A DNA stretch of 64,000 bases from the NCBI GenBank assembly GCA_947497985.1, contig CANMIX010000009.1, forward strand, positions 62,001 to 126,000, in the 5' to 3' direction. This DNA comes from an uncultured Paracoccaceae bacterium. Its GTDB lineage: Bacteria; Pseudomonadota; Alphaproteobacteria; Rhodobacterales; Rhodobacteraceae. A program made the translations under genes and the position numbers. The stretch's first letter is position 1; each line of letters opens with the position of its first letter. Positions 4,182 through 64,000 of the stretch are shown here, in pieces. The notes below the pieces were generated by a model. It worked only from the letters and a program-made list of their open reading frames with translations. It ran no database searches and was not told where the DNA came from.

Positions 4182-5249
4182 ATGAAATCCGCACAAAACA
4201 TCCTTCAGCCCGAAGCAAAGGCGCTCAATACAGCGGTGCTGGTTTTGGATGAAACCAACACACTGTCCTTTGCCGCAACGGTAGATCCCATGCGCGCCGC
4301 CAATCGTTTGGCTGGACGTCCGCTCTTTGACTGGGACTATGTCAGCGCCACGGACGAAGTGCCGATGCTGTCCAGCGGGCTGACGGTACCAAGCTTTCCG
4401 ATGGCGCAATTGGAGACATGTGACGCGTTGATCGTTCTGGCCGGTTTCCAACTTGCGCGCCATGCGACCCCCAGCCTGCTGTCTGGTCTGCGCCGCATTG
4501 CCAACACAGGGGCCACATTGATCGGCATCGACGGGGGGGCTTGGTTACTGGCTGAGGCCGGCCTGTTGGACCACCATCCTGCGACCTGCCACTGGGACGC
4601 GCAGGAGAGTTTCTCCCGCCGCTTTCCCGAAGTTGAATTTTGTGCCGAGCCCTTCACCACGTCTGAGGGTCGGATGACAGCCAGCGGCGGCACGGCAGCA
4701 GTTGACCTGATGTTGCACCTGATCAATGCACGGATGGGTGCCGGATTTGCCGGGCGCATGGCAGATCTGTTTGTCGCACCAAAACTCATGGATGAGCCCT
4801 TGCCCGATGACGGCTCTGTTGTATCACTCCCCTCCGGCAGCGCCCGCGACACCGCGTTGACCGATCAGGCCCACGCGCTGATGGAGGACACGCTGGCAAC
4901 CCCGATGCCGCTTGCCATGATGGCAGAGATTTTGGGGACGAGCGCACGCACTCTGCAACAGCAATTCCGCCTGCGTTTGAACACCACGCCACAGGATCAC
5001 TATTTGCAACTGCGCCTTGCAGAAGCACGCCGTTTGGTGACCGACACCAGCCTGCCATTGCTGGAAGTGGCCGAAGCCACCGGGTTTACGTCGCAGTCCA
5101 GCTTTTCTCGCGCCTTTCGCACCGCACATGGGATTTCCGCACGCGCGTTGCGCCAGGATCTTCCACAGCATCAAGGCACAACAGGAAGCCGCTTGCTCCC
5201 ACATAGCTTGGCCAAATTTGCGTCCCGCTCTTCGGCGACACGCCACTAG
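4182..5249 (+). CDS. GlxA-family transcriptional regulator (DJ-1/PfpI domain plus AraC HTH)
   Basis: A 355-residue regulator. The N-terminal half (about residues 15-190) is a DJ-1/PfpI amidotransferase-like domain. The C-terminal 100 residues form an AraC/XylS double helix-turn-helix, with the family signature in Leu-Leu-Glu-Val-Ala-Glu-Ala-Thr-Gly-Phe-Thr-Ser-Gln-Ser-Ser-Phe-Ser-Arg-Ala-Phe. Relatives control carnitine, glycine-betaine and other quaternary amine or amino acid catabolism, but no catabolic genes adjoin it here, so the target is unknown. The start chosen is the methionine of MKSAQNILQ; the longer reading begins in AT-rich intergenic sequence. Confidence 0.85.
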   Translation: MKSAQNILQPEAKALNTAVLVLDETNTLSFAATVDPMRAANRLAGRPLFDWDYVSATDEVPMLSSGLTVPSFPMAQLETCDALIVLAGFQLARHATPSLLSGLRRIANTGATLIGIDGGAWLLAEAGLLDHHPATCHWDAQESFSRRFPEVEFCAEPFTTSEGRMTASGGTAAVDLMLHLINARMGAGFAGRMADLFVAPKLMDEPLPDDGSVVSLPSGSARDTALTDQAHALMEDTLATPMPLAMMAEILGTSARTLQQQFRLRLNTTPQDHYLQLRLAEARRLVTDTSLPLLEVAEATGFTSQSSFSRAFRTAHGISARALRQDLPQHQGTTGSRLLPHSLAKFASRSSATRH

Positions 5250-5268
5250 GCCAGAAAACGCAACGGCA

Positions 5269-5353
5269 GCACCGCGCCAAAAGGCGCGGTGCCCGGCCCA
5301 ACGGGTCGCCTGCGATCTTGATCGCTGTGCAGACCGGGCGGGAGCCCCCGCCC
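5269..5353. terminator. Two stem-loops between convergent genes
   Basis: Between the convergent regulator and aldo/keto reductase genes there are two strong hairpins. GCACCGCGCC-AAAA-GGCGCGGTGC (5269-5292) is a perfect 10-bp stem. GGGCGGG-AGCC-CCCGCCC (5336-5353) has a 7-bp stem. Neither has a long U tract, so they may be bidirectional terminators or mRNA 3'-end stabilisers. Confidence 0.5.
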
Positions 5354-5373
5354 CTTTGGCCTAAGCACGCCGA

Positions 5374-6423
5374 TCAATACGGCATGGGATACGCTTTGTG
5401 GGTGGCATCAATCTCGGAAATGACATCCTCACCCAGTTCCAGATCTTTACCATCCAGGATATGTTGCAACTGTATCTGATCGGTTGCGCCAAAGATGATT
5501 GAGGCCATAAAGGGACGGGTTTTGCACCATGCCAGCGCCATGTGGGTCGGATCTAGACCGTGTTTGCTGGCAATCGCCAAATAGGCATCAACGGCTCCAA
5601 ATACACGCTCGGACACACGACCACCCAAATTACTATTGATGGTCATGCGTGATTTCTCAGGCACAGCACCGCTTTGGTACTTACCGGTCAAAAGTCCCGT
5701 CGCAAGGGGTGAATAAGACAACAGCCCCACGTCTTCATAGGTGCTCAGCTCCGCAAGATCCGTGTCAAACAAACGGCACAACAGCGAGTATTCGTTTTGC
5801 AACGTGGCCACGCGTGGGCCTTTGCCCGCCTCCGCCAACTCCAACCACTGGGAGGTGCCCCATGCGCTGTCATTGCTGAGACCAAAAGCACGGATATTGC
5901 CTTTGTCGACCTGCTCCTGCAGCGCTTCCAGACAGGTTTCGATATCTGCGCGGATATCTGATCGGGTTTGCCCCGATGTCCAGGGCTTAAACCCCCAGTT
6001 CTTGCGGAACATATAGCTGCCGCGATTTGGCCAATGGAATTGGTACAGGTCGATGTAATCCGTTTTCAACCGCCTCAGAGAGCCTTCGATGGTTGATGCG
6101 ATGCTCTCCTTACTGATCGGCGCGCCGTCGCGCACAGCCTTAAGACCTTCACCGGAATGTTTCGTCGCCAGAATATAATCGCCACGACGCCCGGTCTTCT
6201 CATTCCAATTGCCAATGATCGCTTCACTGTGGCCAATGGTTTCTGCCCGCACCGGGTTGACCGGATACATTTCTGCGGTGTCTAAAAAATTGATCCCGGC
6301 CTCGAGCGCCATGTCAATTTGCGTATGCGAGTCAGCTTCATCGGTCTGCGAGCCAAAGGTCATGGTGCCCAGGCAATACTCTGTGACCATGATATCTGTG
6401 CGGCCCAATCGGTTCTGTTTCAT
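5374..6423 (-). CDS. Aldo/keto reductase (Tas-like)
   Basis: A 349-residue NADP(H)-dependent aldo/keto reductase with a TIM-barrel layout. Visible features are the Leu-Gly-Arg-Thr N-terminal strand, the Gly-Ile-Asn-Phe-Leu-Asp-Thr-Ala-Glu-Met-Tyr segment carrying the catalytic Asp and Tyr, the Ala-Thr-Lys-His lysine motif and the Tyr-Gln-Phe-His-Trp histidine motif. This completes the Asp-Tyr-Lys-His tetrad. The length and the insertion after the Tyr fit the Tas/YghZ-like branch rather than short AKRs. The substrate is unknown. It is divergent from the SOS-regulated imuA. Confidence 0.88.
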   Translation of the reverse strand: MKQNRLGRTDIMVTEYCLGTMTFGSQTDEADSHTQIDMALEAGINFLDTAEMYPVNPVRAETIGHSEAIIGNWNEKTGRRGDYILATKHSGEGLKAVRDGAPISKESIASTIEGSLRRLKTDYIDLYQFHWPNRGSYMFRKNWGFKPWTSGQTRSDIRADIETCLEALQEQVDKGNIRAFGLSNDSAWGTSQWLELAEAGKGPRVATLQNEYSLLCRLFDTDLAELSTYEDVGLLSYSPLATGLLTGKYQSGAVPEKSRMTINSNLGGRVSERVFGAVDAYLAIASKHGLDPTHMALAWCKTRPFMASIIFGATDQIQLQHILDGKDLELGEDVISEIDATHKAYPMPY

Positions 6424-6506
6424 TGCACGTCCCTTCGCTGTCCGGCATTTTGTTACCGCAACCTAAGCCTCCATTGGTGTGATGCAACCCCCTCAGAAAA
6501 GATTGA

Positions 6507-6521
6507 GAACAAAATGAGAAC
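6507..6521 (-). promoter_or_regulatory. LexA (SOS) box upstream of imuA
   Basis: The sequence GAAC-AAAATGA-GAAC is an exact GAAC-N7-GAAC direct repeat. Read on the minus strand it is GTTC-N7-GTTC, the consensus LexA operator of alphaproteobacteria. It ends 15 bp before the imuA start codon, where a repressor would block transcription. A second small inverted repeat, CATGCC-N7-GGCATG, lies between the box and the start codon and overlaps the ATG. Confidence 0.8.
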
Positions 6522-6536
6522 ATGCCAATCTAAGGC

Positions 6537-7160
6537 ATGCCGACTCATCTTTTGACCCGCAGAACACATCGACCCAAAGACGGCCTGTGTCTGAGCGATG
6601 ATATCTCCCTGCCCCGCGCCCGCGCGCATGAGGCCTGCGGCCCGGCTCGCTGGGGGTTTGCCCTATGGCTGGCCTCGGCTGTGCCCGGCCCGATCCTCTG
6701 GGTGACACCCCAATGGGAGAAGGTACAGCTCAACCCCGATGGCATCGCGCCCTTCACCGATCCGAGCAGGTTTCTCTTTATCCGCGCCCCTCGGACAGAG
6801 GATCTTTTGTGGTGCACCGAAGAGATCCTGCGCAGCGGGGCTACGGGGCTTGTTGTCTGTGAACTTCCTGAACCACCTTTGATGACCCCAGTCCGCCGTC
6901 TGCATCTTGCGGCGGAGGAAGGCGGTACATTGGGGGCTGCCCCCCTCGCGCTGCTGCTGACCCCTGATCAAGGCGGCGCCCCCGGCATTGAGACGCGCTG
7001 GCATATGGCGCAAGCCCACAGCGCCACTCACAGCCACTGGACCCTCAAGCGTCTGCGCGCCCGCACTGCACCCCCCAAAGAGTGGATCCTCAAACGCGGC
7101 GCGGCCCCCAAGCCTTTTGCGGTGTCTCCAGCCAGCACACCAAACGTTCGCAATTCATAA
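6537..7160 (+). CDS. imuA: ImuA-family SOS mutagenesis protein (orphan)
   Basis: A 207-residue protein of the short alphaproteobacterial ImuA type (RecA/SulA-like, lacking a full RecA core). It shows the family's start motif, the Ala-Arg-Ala-His-Glu-Ala-Cys-Gly-Pro-Ala segment, the Glu-Asp-Leu-Leu-Trp-Cys-Thr-Glu-Glu-Ile-Leu-Arg helix, the Thr-Pro-Val-Arg-Arg-Leu-His-Leu-Ala-Ala-Glu motif and the C-terminal Trp-Thr-Leu-Lys-Arg-Leu-Arg-Ala-Arg tail. ImuA normally works with ImuB and DnaE2 in error-prone lesion bypass, encoded as imuA-imuB-dnaE2. Here the next gene is an AraC regulator, so the cassette is split or degraded. The upstream LexA box supports SOS induction. Confidence 0.8.
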   Translation: MPTHLLTRRTHRPKDGLCLSDDISLPRARAHEACGPARWGFALWLASAVPGPILWVTPQWEKVQLNPDGIAPFTDPSRFLFIRAPRTEDLLWCTEEILRSGATGLVVCELPEPPLMTPVRRLHLAAEEGGTLGAAPLALLLTPDQGGAPGIETRWHMAQAHSATHSHWTLKRLRARTAPPKEWILKRGAAPKPFAVSPASTPNVRNS

Positions 7161-8275: not shown

Positions 8276-8644
8276 ATGTCCCTAAAATTCGTATCCAAAA
8301 CCGTTCATGCCTATCTGGATTATCCGGTTGCGCTGGCCCTTTTGATCGCCCCGTTTGCACTTGGGCTCGGCACAGACACCACGCTGGCTCTTTGGCTGTC
8401 CGTCACGGTTGGGGTCGCGGCCTTTGTCCTCACCTTATTGACAGACCACCACCTAGGCCTCTTTCGAATATTGCCGTACTCGGTTCATCTAGCCGTCGAC
8501 GCAGCAGTGGGCGCGCTCTTTCTCTTCGCACCGATGGCGTTTGGGTTCAAAGGGCTTGATGCCTATTTCTATTGGGCCAACGGCCTGGCTGTGGTGATTG
8601 TAGTTGGCCTGCATAAACCCGAAAACGAGTCAGCACACGTTTAG
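8276..8644 (+). CDS. SPW-repeat-type small membrane protein
   Basis: A 122-residue protein with four hydrophobic helices in two similar halves. Each half has a Tyr-Leu-Asp-Tyr-Pro/Val-His-Leu-Ala-Val-Asp type opening and a Pro-Phe-Ala-Leu-Gly-Leu-Gly or Pro-Met-Ala-Phe-Gly-Phe core, as in the Rhodobacterales SPW-repeat family. The start was set at the ATG after an AAAGGAG ribosome binding site. Function unknown; homologues are often induced in stress or envelope contexts. Confidence 0.75.
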   Translation: MSLKFVSKTVHAYLDYPVALALLIAPFALGLGTDTTLALWLSVTVGVAAFVLTLLTDHHLGLFRILPYSVHLAVDAAVGALFLFAPMAFGFKGLDAYFYWANGLAVVIVVGLHKPENESAHV

Positions 8645-56275: not shown

Positions 56276-57181
56276 TTAACGGTCGCCTCGCTGGTGGCCA
56301 TCCAGAATATCGGCAATATCAGCCGCAAGCCCTGCCAGTTTGTCACCCATCGGATTGGTGTTCCGCCAGACCAGGCCGACCTTACGGCTGGGTTGCTGGC
56401 TCTCGAACCGGGCAATTGAGACATCGGCAGAACGGGTTTCAACTGGCACCGCCATTTCCGGCAACAAGGTCACGCCCAGACCTGCGTTCACCATCTGCAC
56501 CAACGTCGACAGCGACGAGCCATCCATCACCTCGCGTGGTTGGCTGGGACGCAACTCGCAAAAGCTGAGGGCCTGATCGCGAAAGCAGTGCCCCTCTTCC
56601 AGCAACAAAAGCTGCATCTCCCGCAGGCTTTCGCGGCTGGGCACAGGTTTCCCGGCATCGGACACCGGACGCACCAAAACAAATTCCTCGTCAAACAGCG
56701 GCTGTTCGGCAAATCCCGTCTCACCCACCGGTAGCGCCATGATGGCAGTGTCCAGTTGGCCTTCCTTCAACGCCCGGGTCAGGTGCTGGGTCTGGGTTTC
56801 ACGAATACGGAACTCCAACTGCGGATAGCGCGCGCCCAACCCCGTCACAATCTGCGGCAATAAATAGGGGGCAATTGTGGGAATCACGCCCAGACGCAAG
56901 CGTCCAGCCAACCCCTGTTTCGCGGCCCGCGCCAGATCCCCCAACTCATCAACCGCGCGCAGGATCTCTTGAGCACGGGTGCGGAACTCTTCGCCAAAGC
57001 TGGTGAGCTGCACCGACCGTGCCGTGCGCTCAAACAAGGGCATGCCCAAATTCGCCTCTAACTCTTTGATCTGAACCGAAAGAGCGGGCTGGGAGACCGC
57101 TGCCGTTTCGGCCGCCCGTCCAAAGTGACCTTGTTGGGCGAGAGCTTCAAAATATTTTAATTGGCGTAGGGTAATGTTCAT
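56276..57181 (-). CDS. oxyR: Hydrogen peroxide-sensing regulator OxyR
   Basis: A 301-residue LysR-type activator. The N-terminal winged helix (about 1-60) is followed by the peroxide-sensing domain with Gly-His-Cys-Phe-Arg-Asp-Gln-Ala-Leu-Ser-Phe-Cys. Counting from the second of two adjacent ATGs puts the redox cysteines at 199 and 208, exactly as in E. coli OxyR, so that start was used (the first ATG is 3 bp upstream). A GGGAGA site precedes it. It is divergent from katG, the expected target. Confidence 0.95.
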   Translation of the reverse strand: MNITLRQLKYFEALAQQGHFGRAAETAAVSQPALSVQIKELEANLGMPLFERTARSVQLTSFGEEFRTRAQEILRAVDELGDLARAAKQGLAGRLRLGVIPTIAPYLLPQIVTGLGARYPQLEFRIRETQTQHLTRALKEGQLDTAIMALPVGETGFAEQPLFDEEFVLVRPVSDAGKPVPSRESLREMQLLLLEEGHCFRDQALSFCELRPSQPREVMDGSSLSTLVQMVNAGLGVTLLPEMAVPVETRSADVSIARFESQQPSRKVGLVWRNTNPMGDKLAGLAADIADILDGHQRGDR

Positions 57182-57214
57182 CATAACTTCTCCCTATCAC
57201 CCTTATCACTTAAT

Positions 57215-59491
<2,277 letters not shown>

Positions 59492-60038: not shown

Positions 60039-60228
60039 TTTGTCCGGTCTCCCCCACTGCGTCCCCCAATATAGGCCGCAAACTTACAATCGAAACGAGC
60101 TATTCTGCTCGCGCTGACCGTGTACCATTGTACACCGCCCTCTGTCCTGCTTGTTTTGAGTAATTAGAGAATTTTTATAAAATACTTGCAATGAATACGT
60201 AAACTTACGGAGTCTCACATGTCAAATT

Positions 60229-60262
60229 AAGGGCGGTACATCCCCCTGACGCACCGCCCCTT
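60229..60262 (-). terminator. Probable terminator of the haem-rich operon
   Basis: Read on the minus strand, a stem of AAGGGGCGGT...ACCGCCCTT with one bulge is followed by AATTTGA, 27 bp beyond the globin stop codon. It is the likely end of the globin operon transcript. The rest of the 250-bp gap (60039-60288) has no gene. Confidence 0.55.
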
Positions 60263-60288: not shown

Positions 60289-60753
60289 TCAGGCCCAGAA
60301 TTTCCAAAATGGTTTTTTGCCACCGCCCGCAGCCATGGCGACCGGCGGGTAGGCTGCGTCCTTCATCACACCTGAAAGCGTGGTATAGGCAACGGTCCAG
60401 GCTTCGGCGACTTCAGGTGTCCAGGCTTCGCCCAGACCTTTTTCCAAGGTGCGCAAAAGCGAGCCGCCAACCTTGTCATAATCCTCGGCTTTTACACCGT
60501 AATCCACGTGGCCAATCGCCAATTTCTGGGCAACGGGCACGATCTTGTCCAGATCACGCAGACCGTTCACAACAACGCCCAGGGTCGCCATCAGTTTTGA
60601 GCCCTGATCGCTCATGTCTGTATTGGCGAAATAGGGTTTCACCTCGGGTGCGGTTTCAAACAGATCGTTATAAAAGATCTCAGCAGCCGCGTCTTTGATG
60701 GGCACCACTTTGGCAAAGCTTTCCTGGATCAGAGTGATTTGATTGCTATCCAT
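60289..60753 (-). CDS. Bacterial globin (single-domain haemoglobin)
   Basis: A 154-residue globin of the Vitreoscilla/flavohaemoglobin-like class, without a reductase domain. The proximal histidine is His82 in Ala-Ile-Gly-His-Val-Asp-Tyr-Gly-Val, and the distal region has Ser-Asp-Gln-Gly-Ser-Lys-Leu-Met. A Gly-Lys-Lys-Pro-Phe-Trp-Lys-Phe-Trp tail extends the C-terminus. Relatives bind O2 or NO and can act as NO dioxygenases with a partner reductase. It is the last gene of the haem-rich operon, after the small cytochrome c. Confidence 0.9.
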   Translation of the reverse strand: MDSNQITLIQESFAKVVPIKDAAAEIFYNDLFETAPEVKPYFANTDMSDQGSKLMATLGVVVNGLRDLDKIVPVAQKLAIGHVDYGVKAEDYDKVGGSLLRTLEKGLGEAWTPEVAEAWTVAYTTLSGVMKDAAYPPVAMAAGGGKKPFWKFWA

Positions 60754-60797
60754 GTTCTCAGTCCTCCTGTCGGGGTTCGTATGTGTTCAATTGCACG

Positions 60798-61250
60798 TTA
60801 TTCAGTTGCCAGGACGTCACCGCCGCTAGCCCAGACCATGAAACGCACCGCTGCCTGAACCTGTGCGTCGCTCAGATCATCATTGCCGCCGCGCGGCGGC
60901 ATCTGGGTGTATTTTGGTCCGGTAAATCCGTTGATGGCATGGTCAAATAGCACCGCCAGCCCCTGCTCGATCCGGGGGGCCCATGCATCTGTTGCGGTGA
61001 TTTTAGGCGCACCGGTCAACCGGTTGCCGCCATGGCAGTTCTGGCAGGTCTCTTCCCAAACTGCGCGCCCCTCTAGAAGCTGCGCATCTTCGGGCAAAGG
61101 CAGGCGCTCGACAGTGACAAAACCATCAATGCCCTTGTCAGCCAGCAGATCTGCAGGAAAAGGCTCTGCCCGCAGCGGAGTGGCTGCCGCGATAAACGCG
61201 GCAACCCCCAGCAACGGCCAGAGCCGGAGTTTATGTGTCGACCCACGCAC
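60798..61250 (-). CDS. Small exported cytochrome c
   Basis: A 150-residue class I cytochrome c. A signal peptide covers about residues 1-28. The haem motif is Cys69-Gln-Asn-Cys72-His73 and the likely axial methionine is Met117 in Thr-Gln-Met-Pro-Pro. The start is a GTG, and its neighbour's stop lies 5 bp upstream. It may shuttle electrons between the multihaem cytochrome or the membrane cytochrome b protein and another acceptor. Confidence 0.88.
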   Translation of the reverse strand: MRGSTHKLRLWPLLGVAAFIAAATPLRAEPFPADLLADKGIDGFVTVERLPLPEDAQLLEGRAVWEETCQNCHGGNRLTGAPKITATDAWAPRIEQGLAVLFDHAINGFTGPKYTQMPPRGGNDDLSDAQVQAAVRFMVWASGGDVLATE

Positions 61251-61255
61251 AGCGA

Positions 61256-61828
61256 TCAGTTGACCGGGATACGGATCACAACGCCGCCCATTACATCACC
61301 GCCTTCAAAGTCGGTGCGTGGGCTGTCTTTGTGCTCGTTGTGGCAGGTATAGCAAGCAGGTGCGACCGCGACGTCTGCGTAAACAGCCGTGAAATACTCT
61401 TCGCCGCCCAGCTCTTCTACGCCATAGAAGTTTTCGCCTGGGTTATCATTGATGTACTGCAGACCTTCTTCTTCCATCGGAGTGGTTGGCGCGTTCTGCT
61501 TGTTGATCGGCCACAGCGACAGCAGGGAGTATGAGAACTCATCGGTGTTCTCTGCCACCATCTCAGCACCAAAACGGAACATCTGCGCCGGCAGAACCAG
61601 CGCCTTGTCGTCGACAAAATGTTCAGACGCGGTGATCACGCCTTCCTCATTGGCCAGACGGTTCACAACCATCCGCGTGTAAACCGTACGGTCCGAACTC
61701 ATGACCAGGTGCAGAAGGTCTGCCACTGTCTCATATTCCATACCATCGGCCATTGCGCTGGTCGCGGTGGTGCCCATCAGGGCTGCGCCCAGAATTGAGG
61801 CTTTGATTTTTCCTATTTTATTTCCCAT
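61256..61828 (-). CDS. DUF3365/Tll0287-like monohaem periplasmic protein
   Basis: A 190-residue exported protein. After a signal peptide of about 27 residues comes a Tll0287-like (DUF3365) domain with a C-terminal haem motif Cys159-Tyr-Thr-Cys162-His163. Segments Arg-Met-Val-Val-Asn-Arg-Leu and Pro-Ala-Gln-Met-Phe-Arg-Phe-Gly are typical. Family members are sensor or redox haem domains with PAS-like topology. Its place between the eleven-haem cytochrome and the small cytochrome c suggests a signal-sensing or electron-transfer subunit. Confidence 0.82.
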   Translation of the reverse strand: MGNKIGKIKASILGAALMGTTATSAMADGMEYETVADLLHLVMSSDRTVYTRMVVNRLANEEGVITASEHFVDDKALVLPAQMFRFGAEMVAENTDEFSYSLLSLWPINKQNAPTTPMEEEGLQYINDNPGENFYGVEELGGEEYFTAVYADVAVAPACYTCHNEHKDSPRTDFEGGDVMGGVVIRIPVN

Positions 61829-61879
61829 ATGTAAGGTCTCCTGTGCCTTTCGCGGGTTGCAGGGTGCGTGGCCAGCCGG

Positions 61880-63370
61880 TCATTGGTTGGCGCCTTCGGT
61901 TGGCTCGGTCACGCGTTTCAACGCCCAATCGATACTCTCGATGTGGCGATTTGGCTGGCCCGAGAAGTTGCTGTTCACCAGCTCCGGGTCCGCCAAAGCA
62001 TCAATGGCAAATTCCAGACTGTGGCATTCCAGACAGGTCGGGCGGATCATTTTCTCGTTCGGACGCAGCGTGTCGTTTTGGTTGTGATTGGTGGTGATCA
62101 CACCGCGTTTCTCGGTTTTGGGCATGTGGCATGTGGCACATGTGACACCGGATCCCGGCGGCAGATCTCCTGCCAGCTCACCCTGCCACAGGGCAAAATG
62201 CGGGCTTTGGGTGAAATTCTGGCTGTGCTCATCCGCATGGCACGACAGGCAGGCACCGACGGCGGCAAATTGCAGATCCTGTTCATGCGGGTCATGACAG
62301 GTGGAACAGGTCAGCTCCTCACCATGGGCTTCGGGCAGCAGCGGCACGCGGGCTTCGGCCGTGCTCATCAAGGGGGCCGGCGTTGGGTCAACCAGATAGG
62401 CCTCAAGGAAAGCAATCGCGCCATCAGACGGATCAGACCAGCCCAGACGTTTCAGCATCCGTTTGGCGGGGCGTGGATTTGACACTTCGGGGTGGCGACG
62501 CATGCCGTGACGCCCCAGGGCAAAGGTCTTGGCCTCATCCTTGTGGCAGGTTGCGCAGACCTTTTCTTCGGGGTGCTCGATCCATTGCGCCTCGACCTCT
62601 TCTTCGGTCTCGGCTTTGGGGGCATGACAACTGGCACAGCTCACATCCGCCAGCGCATGGGCAGATCCTGCCCAATGGGCCTCGACCTCTTGGTCACGGG
62701 CGGTGGCAGGTGCGGAAACCTCAGCCAAATATGTCTCGATGTCAGCCGTTTCGGGACGGGGTTTCTCACGCGCGGCCGCTTCAATCGAATGGGTGGGGTC
62801 TTCCTGCAACCAGGGTTGATCCGCATGTTTCAACAAGAAATCTTCGTAGAGCGCACGGTTGTCGTGGAAGTTGTGACAGCCGGCCGTTGCACAGGTTTCA
62901 AAGCCCAGATCCTTGTGGCTTTCGCGGTTAACCCGCACGTCCTGATCACCTTCGCTGTGACAGGCCACGCAGAAATCACCCGGCTGGGTGACCAGACCCG
63001 CTGATGTGATCTCGGGCCGGTGTTCGCTGTGGCAGGATGTGCAAAACCGCGCATCAATATCATCCCAATAGGCAGACATGCGCGGCGGTTTGAATTTCTT
63101 GATCGGATGGCTGTCATCAGACGCGTTCAGCTCATCCTTGTGGCAATTCACGCAGGTCTTGTTGATGTCCTTGCGGATTTTCTTTTGTCCGGCAAAGGGT
63201 TTGGAGGTATGGCAGGTCTCACAGGCCAGCTCGATCTGATGGTGTACGCCCGCCGTCTGGCCCGGTAACAGATCGGTCCGGTCGCCCGTCACATAGATGC
63301 GCGCAAGACCCACACCTGCCAATGCAAATGTGCCAACGCCCCAGGCCATCCAAAGTAATTTGCTCTTCAT
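61880..63370 (-). CDS. Undecahaem c-type cytochrome
   Basis: A 496-residue exported multihaem protein with an N-terminal uncleaved-looking helix (about residues 5-25). Ten CxxCH motifs begin at residues 50, 73, 110, 134, 245, 272, 355, 374, 411 and 446. An eleventh, CX4CH (Cys-Ala-Thr-Ala-Gly-Cys-His), begins at residue 160. No CxxCK site is present, unlike NrfA or octahaem tetrathionate reductase. Many additional histidines could serve as distal ligands. I cannot match it to a characterised enzyme; it could be a reductase or an electron store. It follows the cytochrome b protein by 10 bp. Confidence 0.85.
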   Translation of the reverse strand: MKSKLLWMAWGVGTFALAGVGLARIYVTGDRTDLLPGQTAGVHHQIELACETCHTSKPFAGQKKIRKDINKTCVNCHKDELNASDDSHPIKKFKPPRMSAYWDDIDARFCTSCHSEHRPEITSAGLVTQPGDFCVACHSEGDQDVRVNRESHKDLGFETCATAGCHNFHDNRALYEDFLLKHADQPWLQEDPTHSIEAAAREKPRPETADIETYLAEVSAPATARDQEVEAHWAGSAHALADVSCASCHAPKAETEEEVEAQWIEHPEEKVCATCHKDEAKTFALGRHGMRRHPEVSNPRPAKRMLKRLGWSDPSDGAIAFLEAYLVDPTPAPLMSTAEARVPLLPEAHGEELTCSTCHDPHEQDLQFAAVGACLSCHADEHSQNFTQSPHFALWQGELAGDLPPGSGVTCATCHMPKTEKRGVITTNHNQNDTLRPNEKMIRPTCLECHSLEFAIDALADPELVNSNFSGQPNRHIESIDWALKRVTEPTEGANQ

Positions 63371-63380
63371 CTGCTCACCC

Positions 63381-64000
63381 TCAGAACGCGTAAGAGGCCA
63401 GAACGTGCAGCAGGATCAGCACGGGCAAAGGCCAGATAGTGAGGATATGCACCCAAGTGGGCAGTTTACGCGGCGGATTGCGGCTGTTGCCGATGCGGCG
63501 GGCGCGCAATTCGTGATCGCCCCCGGTGGTGAGACCCGCAATCGCACCAAAGACCGCGGTCAGAATAAACCCAAGCCCCAAAGCCATGTTCAGATTACTG
63601 CCCAATCTGAAACCCGTATGGGCCACAAAACCGATGATCGCAGCAATCCCGATGCCCAGATGCACCAGCCTCCAGGCGTCAAAGCTGCCCAATCGGTCGG
63701 TCCAACGGATCCGTTTGCGCAGGCCAATCACCATGGCCGAGACAAACAGCCCCAACAGGATAAACCCGCTCCATTGTTTGACGATATTGTCGCGCCACAG
63801 CCAGACGCGCAGGCTGTCCGCGTCGAAACTGGTCGGCAGTGGCACATGACCCGCCAACAGTGGATACAACGCGCCGAGACCGGCAATTGAAGACAGGGCC
63901 AATACCGGTTTCCACAAAGGCATCGGTTTTGGCTTCCCACCAACATCGATCAAATCTTCTACCAGCGGACGGCAAGTGCCGCAAACCGTGGCGGCCCCGG
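63381..64000 (-). CDS. BFD-type [2Fe-2S] plus cytochrome b-like membrane protein, C-terminal part
   Basis: The reading frame is open to the right edge of the window, so the N-terminus is missing. The visible part starts with Val-Cys-Gly-Thr-Cys-Arg-Pro-Leu-Val-Glu-Asp-Leu, a BFD-like [2Fe-2S] motif as in NirB. A membrane domain with about five helices and several histidines (for example His-Leu-Gly-Ile, His-Thr-Gly-Phe, His-Ile-Leu-Thr, Leu-Leu-His-Val-Leu) follows, like a cytochrome b. Such fusions usually carry an N-terminal flavin reductase domain. It is the first visible gene of the haem-rich operon and would pass electrons from NAD(P)H toward the periplasm. Confidence 0.7.
   Translation of the reverse strand, partial: GAATVCGTCRPLVEDLIDVGGKPKPMPLWKPVLALSSIAGLGALYPLLAGHVPLPTSFDADSLRVWLWRDNIVKQWSGFILLGLFVSAMVIGLRKRIRWTDRLGSFDAWRLVHLGIGIAAIIGFVAHTGFRLGSNLNMALGLGFILTAVFGAIAGLTTGGDHELRARRIGNSRNPPRKLPTWVHILTIWPLPVLILLHVLASYAF

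Follow-up and report, generated by a model that had tools for sequence, protein, structure and literature searches.

Which process does the haem-rich operon at positions 60,289 to 64,000 of the window serve, and what switches it on? The window is a stretch of 64,000 nucleotides from contig CANMIX010000009.1 of an uncultured Paracoccaceae bacterium (assembly GCA_947497985.1), whose genome measures 4.19 Mb. A first-pass annotation had proposed five packed minus-strand genes with short gaps; all five are present, separated by 44, 5, 51 and 10 base pairs (bp) from the globin gene up to the reductase gene. The reductase gene is cut by the right edge of the window, and extending the sequence past that edge, as the annotation had advised, completed it. 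Upstream of it lies a leader with two hairpins that resemble targets of the nitrate-assimilation regulator NasT. The features are as follows (aa, amino acids; L002 coordinates reach beyond the window).

60224..60261, minus strand: hairpin and short A/T-rich stretch 3' of the globin gene, a plausible terminator (folding)
60289..60753, minus strand: single-domain globin, 154 aa (Pfam; invariant Y28, F42, Q50 and H82)
60798..61250, minus strand: small class I cytochrome c, 150 aa (Pfam; CXXCH; invariant Met117)
61256..61828, minus strand: Tll0287-like (sCache_heme) mono-haem c protein, 190 aa, candidate terminal site (Pfam)
61880..63370, minus strand: 11-haem c-type cytochrome, 496 aa, putative electron wire (N-terminal hydrophobic stretch, by eye)
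63381..64000, minus strand: 3' part of the reductase gene, with BFD [2Fe-2S] and four-His cytochrome b parts (Pfam, NCBIfam, sequence beyond the edge)
63381-65405 (L002 6382-8406), minus strand: full reductase gene, 674 aa, crossing the window edge
L002 about 8454-8530, outside the window: leader hairpins P1 and P2, about 48-124 bases before the GTG start of the reductase gene

The leader, between the upstream gene and the reductase gene, contains two tandem hairpins with six-base loops, A at loop position 1, G at position 4 and a C:G closing pair. Work on NasR and EutV has defined A1/G4 hexaloop hairpins with C:G closure as the target of ANTAR proteins (PMC7496416, PMC3369936). Tandem A1/G4 hexaloop pairs occur in 12 of 16 leaders, a set that leaves out L039 (which has no upstream DNA), compared with a chance mean of 0.27 in 200 Markov resamplings, none of which gave more than 2; as controls, the remaining 15 combinations of loop letters give 0 or 1 among the same leaders. 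The strict form, with the C:G closing pair, is found in 12 of the 15 leaders of the window's family, L027, L030 and L033 being those without it. In a second class (the class of genome G550, probably Gammaproteobacteria judging from gene content), it is found in 7 of 24 leaders, where chance gives 0.055 (maximum 1) and control letter pairs 0 to 2. The leader stems covary, most clearly in P1. Among 17 leaders chosen for having the pair, pairing exceeds all 2000 shuffles at P1 positions 2-5 and, in P2, at position 2; at P2 positions 3 and 4 some shuffles pair at least as often, and only 8 of the 17 leaders are paired at position 5.

The strict pair is confined to two settings. Over 469,207 bases from 25 loci of the window's family, both strands, it occurs 16 times: 8 before the operon, 8 in nitrate-assimilation (nas) loci and none elsewhere. 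These latter pairs belong to 8 of the 12 nas loci, in all eight cases before a gene with the Pfam domain NMT1_2, and the other four nas loci have none. From its place beside NirB and NasT-type genes, the NMT1_2 gene likely encodes an NrtA-type nitrate-binding protein. In Paracoccus, NasT binds the nasA leader (PMC3795266), and a hairpin-I mutant of that leader lost growth on nitrate (PMC5424462). As regards its control alone, the operon is very probably under a nitrate switch, and what is new here is the presence in its leader of tandem hairpins with the features of ANTAR/NasT targets.

The distribution of nas genes points the same way. In the window's family, an ANTAR gene is present in 15 of 15 carriers of the operon vs 17 of 28 non-carriers (Fisher p 0.008), and full NirB in 15 of 15 vs 14 of 28 (p 0.0006). 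In the second class without G550, the corresponding figures are 22 of 26 carriers vs 6 of 26 non-carriers for ANTAR (p 1.7e-5) and 21 of 26 vs 9 of 26 for NirB (p 0.002); these tests treat related genomes as independent, the control sets (28 and 26 genomes) are hand-picked non-carriers, and an ANTAR gene is not always NasT. An ANTAR match lies at most 2.5 kb from the reductase match in 10 of the 26 second-class carriers. In L026, the operon has ANTAR and NMT1_2 (NasS-like) genes as direct neighbours, and NMT1_2 genes lie beside it or within about 2 kb in L138, L142, L145 and L159. Of 32 carriers tested, 28 have a match to a NasA-type reductase (E 1e-60), with weaker matches possibly being other molybdoenzymes.

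Several observations speak against a NasT switch of this kind throughout the carriers. The strict motif is absent from 17 of the 24 second-class leaders and from 3 of the 15 family leaders. No convincing U-tract terminator overlapping P2 was seen in the leader of the window organism, the other leaders being inspected by eye only, and the fold of that leader is no more stable than shuffles (z -0.7). No ANTAR match was obtained in 4 of the 26 second-class carriers, nor in G550 (which has NirB) or G568 (which has neither). Separately, Rfam gave no match to the leader. A scan for FNR/Dnr/NnrR promoter sites returned a single match, in L039, the locus without upstream DNA, and this form of control was set aside.

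Some carriers may use a different regulator. An Rrf2 gene lies upstream of the operon in L027, L033 and L034 (the L033 copy found by tblastn), and the L027 and L034 proteins have four closely spaced cysteines; their best-scoring models are NsrR (L027) and RirA (L034), both below cut-offs. Among 30 loci scanned, a palindrome TTAATCATTCAT-N5-ATGAATGATTAA (0 to 4 mismatches) occurs only in these three. Since L027 and L033 lack the strict NasT motif, a swap of regulator to Rrf2 is suggested in these two loci, in which case the Rrf2 input would likely sense nitric oxide (NO) or iron-sulphur status.

What would such a switch turn on? The reductase starts at a GTG and has 674 codons; an alternative TTG four codons in stands behind AGGTGG (by eye). 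The first-pass annotation had called this gene a BFD/cytochrome b protein. Both parts are indeed there, but the description was incomplete, as residues 31-407 form a NirB-type FAD reductase. Its Pfam domains are Pyr_redox_2, Rubredoxin_C and Fer2_BFD. The protein matches positions 1-466 of the 794-position NirB model with 417.8 bits, below the family cut-off of 578, and the match includes neither the sirohaem half nor the full length of NirB. It thus shares with assimilatory nitrite reductase NirB the N-terminal FAD/NADH domains, Rubredoxin_C and the BFD [2Fe-2S] domain, whereas a four-His cytochrome b membrane part takes the place of the sirohaem half. Four cysteines (441, 443, 475 and 478) and four histidines (582, 596, 653 and 667, two pairs of spacing 14) are invariant in 35 sequences longer than 600 aa, which suggests one [2Fe-2S] cluster and two predicted membrane haems b.

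The multihaem protein has 10 CXXCH motifs and one CX4CH (CATAGCH), in agreement with the eleven haems previously counted, and all 22 of its cysteines belong to these motifs. The CX4CH is a real haem site because 14 of 15 other full-length copies share it and the remaining one, L039, has CXXCH in its place. When 39 sequences of 420 aa or more are aligned, all 11 haem sites prove invariant, as do exactly 11 further histidines (43, 88, 117, 152, 169, 238, 288, 362, 382, 391 and 429). With 11 motifs and 11 other invariant histidines, the protein looks like a wire; on the simplest reading, it would hold 11 bis-His haems and have no open site. The first PDB matches of its profile are octahaem nitrite reductase, NrfA and HAO haem modules (local similarity), which is weak evidence on function because such proteins are well represented among multihaem structures. 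The likeness to NrfA/NrfB, octahaem nitrite reductase and HAO lies in CXXCH modules with local similarity, while the operon protein differs in its 11 haems, its NADH-type reductase as electron source and its lack of CXXCK. CXXCK is the catalytic haem motif of NrfA, and none exists in the multihaem protein, where every cysteine is assigned to CXXCH or CX4CH. NrfA-type systems draw electrons from quinol via NapC/NrfH-type proteins. The score to the DmsE-type decahaem cytochrome model, 79.7 bits, is below the NCBIfam cut-off of 192.2.

The Tll0287-like protein matches PF11845 with 70.0 bits (gathering score 24.1), and its CXXCH is invariant in 40 sequences, an alignment with no other conserved cysteine. 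The window's copy has no cysteine outside this motif, and in 17 operon copies other cysteines occur only near the N terminus or in over-extended parts of the frame. The axial cysteine of the stand-alone Cys/His sCache_heme type is therefore missing. Like the sCache_heme (DUF3365, PF11845) proteins described in PMC12889525, the operon protein is a stand-alone mono-haem c protein with a PF11845 match; it differs from them in having no axial cysteine and in being a constant member of an operon that also encodes a multihaem donor. Of the five operon proteins, it shows the highest conservation: mean identity between the two groups is 58% for Tll, 49% for the globin, 43% for the multihaem protein, 39% for the reductase and 35% for cytochrome c (with G550 and G568 assigned to the second group and pairs involving L136 treated as between groups). 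Its invariant residues include R57, R85, Y100 and Y145. A search of the PDB with the Tll profile found no chain. The window's own genome has a second Tll0287 domain, within a 535-aa frame (L107, G000:C15:88431-88910), and related plasmid matches in Leisingera are annotated as chemotaxis proteins.

The last two genes are not always present. The small cytochrome c has a CXXCH and an invariant Met117. The globin matches PF00042, and Y28, F42, Q50 and H82 are invariant in 26 sequences. With the Tyr and Gln read as the B10 and E7 distal residues, it is a single-domain globin with distal Tyr/Gln and a proximal His, and its role in NO detoxification is putative. Among the 45 loci, cytochrome c was called in 22 and a globin, by profile, in 28, one of which (L148) has it upstream. 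L139 and L151 carry in the place of the globin a truncated haemoglobin from a different family (PF01152), and L151 is not among the 28. L139 also has, after the truncated haemoglobin, a ferredoxin-NAD reductase-type gene (5227-6573; Fer2, FAD_binding_6 and NAD_binding_1), possibly a dedicated globin reductase.

Among the first-pass assignments, Pfam bears out Fer2_BFD, Tll0287-like, cytochrome c and Globin. The haem inventory, 11+1+1+1 haem c plus two predicted haems b, amounts to about 16, where at least 14 had been expected. The terminator assigned after the globin gene is borne out in part: a 14-pair hairpin is present (z -3.1), but it is poor in T, with an arm ending in TT followed by AATTT, and a simple terminator scan found none there. 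It is a plausible terminator, weak in T.

The gene set is conserved as a unit. Of 45 loci read by script, which represent several proteobacterial families (three loci come from one genus and two from one genome, G978), 40 keep the order reductase-multihaem-Tll on one strand. Chance grouping is thereby ruled out, and the lack of a shared gene order that the first-pass annotation would have taken as a refutation is not what is seen. Gene calls in the compared loci are longest frames, so that starts and overlaps are rough; Tll frames are over-extended in L037, L136 and L148, and reductase frames are partial in L027, L136, L144 and L155. Among the five non-conforming loci, L148 has the three genes in overlapping long frames, L160 is cut by a contig end, and L040, L161 and L162 deviate. 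L040 (9588-11562) carries a distant three-gene set: a 5-haem cytochrome resembling the N-terminal half, a Tll0287 domain extended at its C-terminal end, and a protein of 160 aa with no Pfam match. In L027 (8788-10229), beside the Rrf2 gene, the reductase and multihaem genes are partly missing, leaving a 289-aa frame and a 232-aa 5-haem frame. From pair to pair of loci, the identities of the three core proteins vary together (r 0.73 to 0.86), which would fit genes that are inherited jointly.

With the window's own genome counted, the multihaem gene is found in 5 of 61 relatives, in 13 of 394 genomes from the family and, at E 1e-10, in 4 of 398 genomes of the phylum, one (G290) weakly; with the alignment as query, it is found in 27 of 369 genomes in the class of G550. 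Two further genomes of the window's genus (G007 and G017) carry the operon. The 1.7-Mb genome G978 holds two copies (L136 and L137), one like the window's family, with a far higher profile score (698 bits), and the other like its own class, by either transfer or contamination. Plasmids in PLSDB gave no multihaem match. The Tll query returned 10 records there at no more than 32% identity, two of them annotated as chemotaxis proteins, and the reductase query 168 records, none covering 80% of the query; among the 15 matches listed for the latter, 11 are annotated nirB and 4 have no annotation.

What, then, does the chain do? In our estimate, there is about an even chance that the operon serves nitrate assimilation as an accessory module, a putative nitrate-induced, NADH-driven chain to a periplasmic nitrogen-oxide sink; as the substrate of this sink, we favour NO first and nitrite second. 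Nitrate or nitrite would free NasT, which would read the two-hairpin leader so that transcription runs on. NADH would be oxidised at the NirB-like FAD head, and electrons would pass from FAD through the BFD [2Fe-2S] cluster and the two membrane haems b to the periplasmic 11-haem bis-His cytochrome. From there, they would reach the Tll0287 haem protein, the presumed site at which a nitrogen oxide, most probably NO but perhaps nitrite, is bound and reduced. In loci that have them, the small cytochrome c would be an extra carrier, and the globin would remove cytoplasmic NO, perhaps also fed by the FAD/BFD head. A path from cytoplasmic reductant through the membrane to periplasmic haem had been suggested from the window alone, and it fits both the completed first gene and the conservation. 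The accompanying guess of a nitrogen-oxide role gains support from the NasT-type leader, the co-occurrence with nas genes and the globin slot, with the substrate still presumptive.

The suggested chain and a precedent in Bradyrhizobium together lead us to favour a nitrogen-oxide sink. In that organism, NasT-controlled globin and flavoprotein genes detoxify NO from nitrate assimilation (PMC4724949). The narK-bjgb-flp-nasC genes resemble the present operon in combining a single-domain globin with an NAD(P)H flavoprotein, co-regulated with nitrate assimilation via NasS-NasT; in contrast, the present operon has no nitrate reductase, and its electron path apparently leads to the periplasm through a cytochrome b in the membrane, the 11-haem cytochrome and the Tll0287 protein. 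The Rrf2 genes of the NsrR/RirA group, with their shared palindrome in three carriers, would also count for a nitrogen-oxide substrate. The high conservation of the Tll protein speaks for it as the terminal site. Its missing cysteine may likewise count for NO, by analogy with a naturally Cys-less sCache_heme member fused to HAMP, a signalling relative that binds NO tightly (PMC12889525).

Other evidence tells against this assignment. The stand-alone sCache_heme protein with an axial cysteine binds NO weakly, also after the cysteine is changed to alanine (PMC12889525), so a missing cysteine alone need not mean tight binding; the operon protein, both stand-alone and Cys-less, matches neither tested case exactly. 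The authors of that study assign redox roles to stand-alone sCache_heme domains. In a later Bradyrhizobium study under denitrifying conditions, narK-bjgb-flp was raised, not lowered, in a nasT mutant (PMC6759348). The 11 invariant histidines of the multihaem protein may also fit ten ligands plus one active-site His, and the cytochrome c and globin genes are dispensable in the light of their counts above.

A stronger form of the proposal, that the operon represents a new class of NADH-driven nitrogen-oxide reductase in which the Cache-fold Tll haem protein would be catalytic and fed by the 11-haem wire and the NirB-derived reductase, is in our view rather unlikely.

The same holds for a periplasmic nitrite-to-ammonium reductase recapturing nitrite leaked in nitrate assimilation, a doubtful alternative in which the 11 haems would store electrons for the six-electron reaction and the reaction would take place on the Tll protein or at a single haem of the multihaem cytochrome. 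Nitrate control would suit it, as would the PDB matches to octahaem nitrite reductase, NrfA and HAO modules, and five second-class carriers (G818, G858, G930, G978 and G1079) have no full NirB. However, the multihaem protein has no CXXCK haem, and full NirB accompanies the operon in all 15 family carriers and in 21 of the 26 second-class carriers, so the operon is not a plain NirB substitute; with full NirB in 36 of 41 carriers of both classes, its role as a simple NirBD replacement is not supported. Nor are the five exceptions all clear-cut: in G858 and G930 the NasA-type gene stops at a contig end, so that nirB may be lost in the gap; G1079 is only 72% complete; and G818, G858 and G930 retain another sirohaem gene, also present in G000 and G940. 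This gene encodes a two-repeat sirohaem protein of about 555 aa (L163-L167) that scores best to NirA models, below the cut-offs of all listed families, and may act on either nitrite or sulphite. CysI was discarded as its identity in G818, G858 and G930 in view of this score, and these three genomes may thus possess a cytoplasmic nitrite reductase despite having no full NirB.

Still less probable is a role of the Tll protein in sensing or buffering redox state or NO, with the chain as its feed and a system that balances redox state during nitrate use and has no dedicated substrate. An sCache_heme domain fused to signalling parts does act as an NO sensor (PMC12889525), and in L036 a chemotaxis-protein gene directly follows the Tll gene. 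Yet the Tll protein has no output domain, a sensor would hardly need an 11-haem feed, and besides L036 no signalling gene was recognised right after Tll in the loci read, a reading that covered part of the neighbours. It is very improbable that the chain is an assimilatory metal (ferric) reductase supplying iron for the iron-rich nitrate and nitrite reductases: the multihaem wire has weak DmsE-type similarity (79.7 bits vs a cut-off of 192) and one adjacent Rrf2 protein scores best to RirA, but the neighbours examined included no recognisable outer-membrane cytochrome or MtrB-type porin, the porins near some loci being of the Alginate_exp type, and nitrate control fits less directly.

These Alginate_exp-type outer-membrane porins recur beside the operon (L142 2275-3516, L143 5542-6750, L145 11663-12874 and L153 4977-6137), in L142 and L145 between the operon and an NMT1_2 or ANTAR gene, and are perhaps nitrate or nitrite porins. 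In L026 (6711-11250), the operon is followed by genes for a molybdopterin oxidoreductase (Pfam) and its Fe-S and membrane subunits, a set that looks SoeABC/DmsABC-like by eye. In the window, divergent LysR (OxyR-like) and KatG-like catalase-peroxidase genes, both identified by eye, flank the other side of the operon (56276-59491), and similar genes occupy the same flank in L041 and L042. To the right of the window (L002 8698-15309) lies a nitrilase/radical-SAM/MSMEG_0569-type cluster, presumably of the kind called Nit1C, whose last gene, of the LnmK/Pnap_2097 family, stands directly upstream of the operon. Among the loci compared for their neighbours, only three, which belong to a single genus (L002, L041 and L042), have this cluster beside the operon, and we rejected it as a functional partner.

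The first-pass annotation knew of no named system with this composition, and among the papers listed by searches of the open-access PMC literature no title or abstract describes the gene set, subscription papers lying mostly outside these searches. A widespread multihaem chain, seemingly undescribed in the papers listed, apparently shares the switch of textbook nitrate assimilation. If it is a new reductase class, it would bypass the quinone pool, give nitrate assimilation a periplasmic arm and represent a sensor fold turned enzyme. If NO removal or nitrite recapture is its role, the operon would link assimilation to nitrosative stress and to the release of NO and nitrous oxide (N2O) by marine bacteria, and would provide stand-alone Tll0287 proteins with a testable job.

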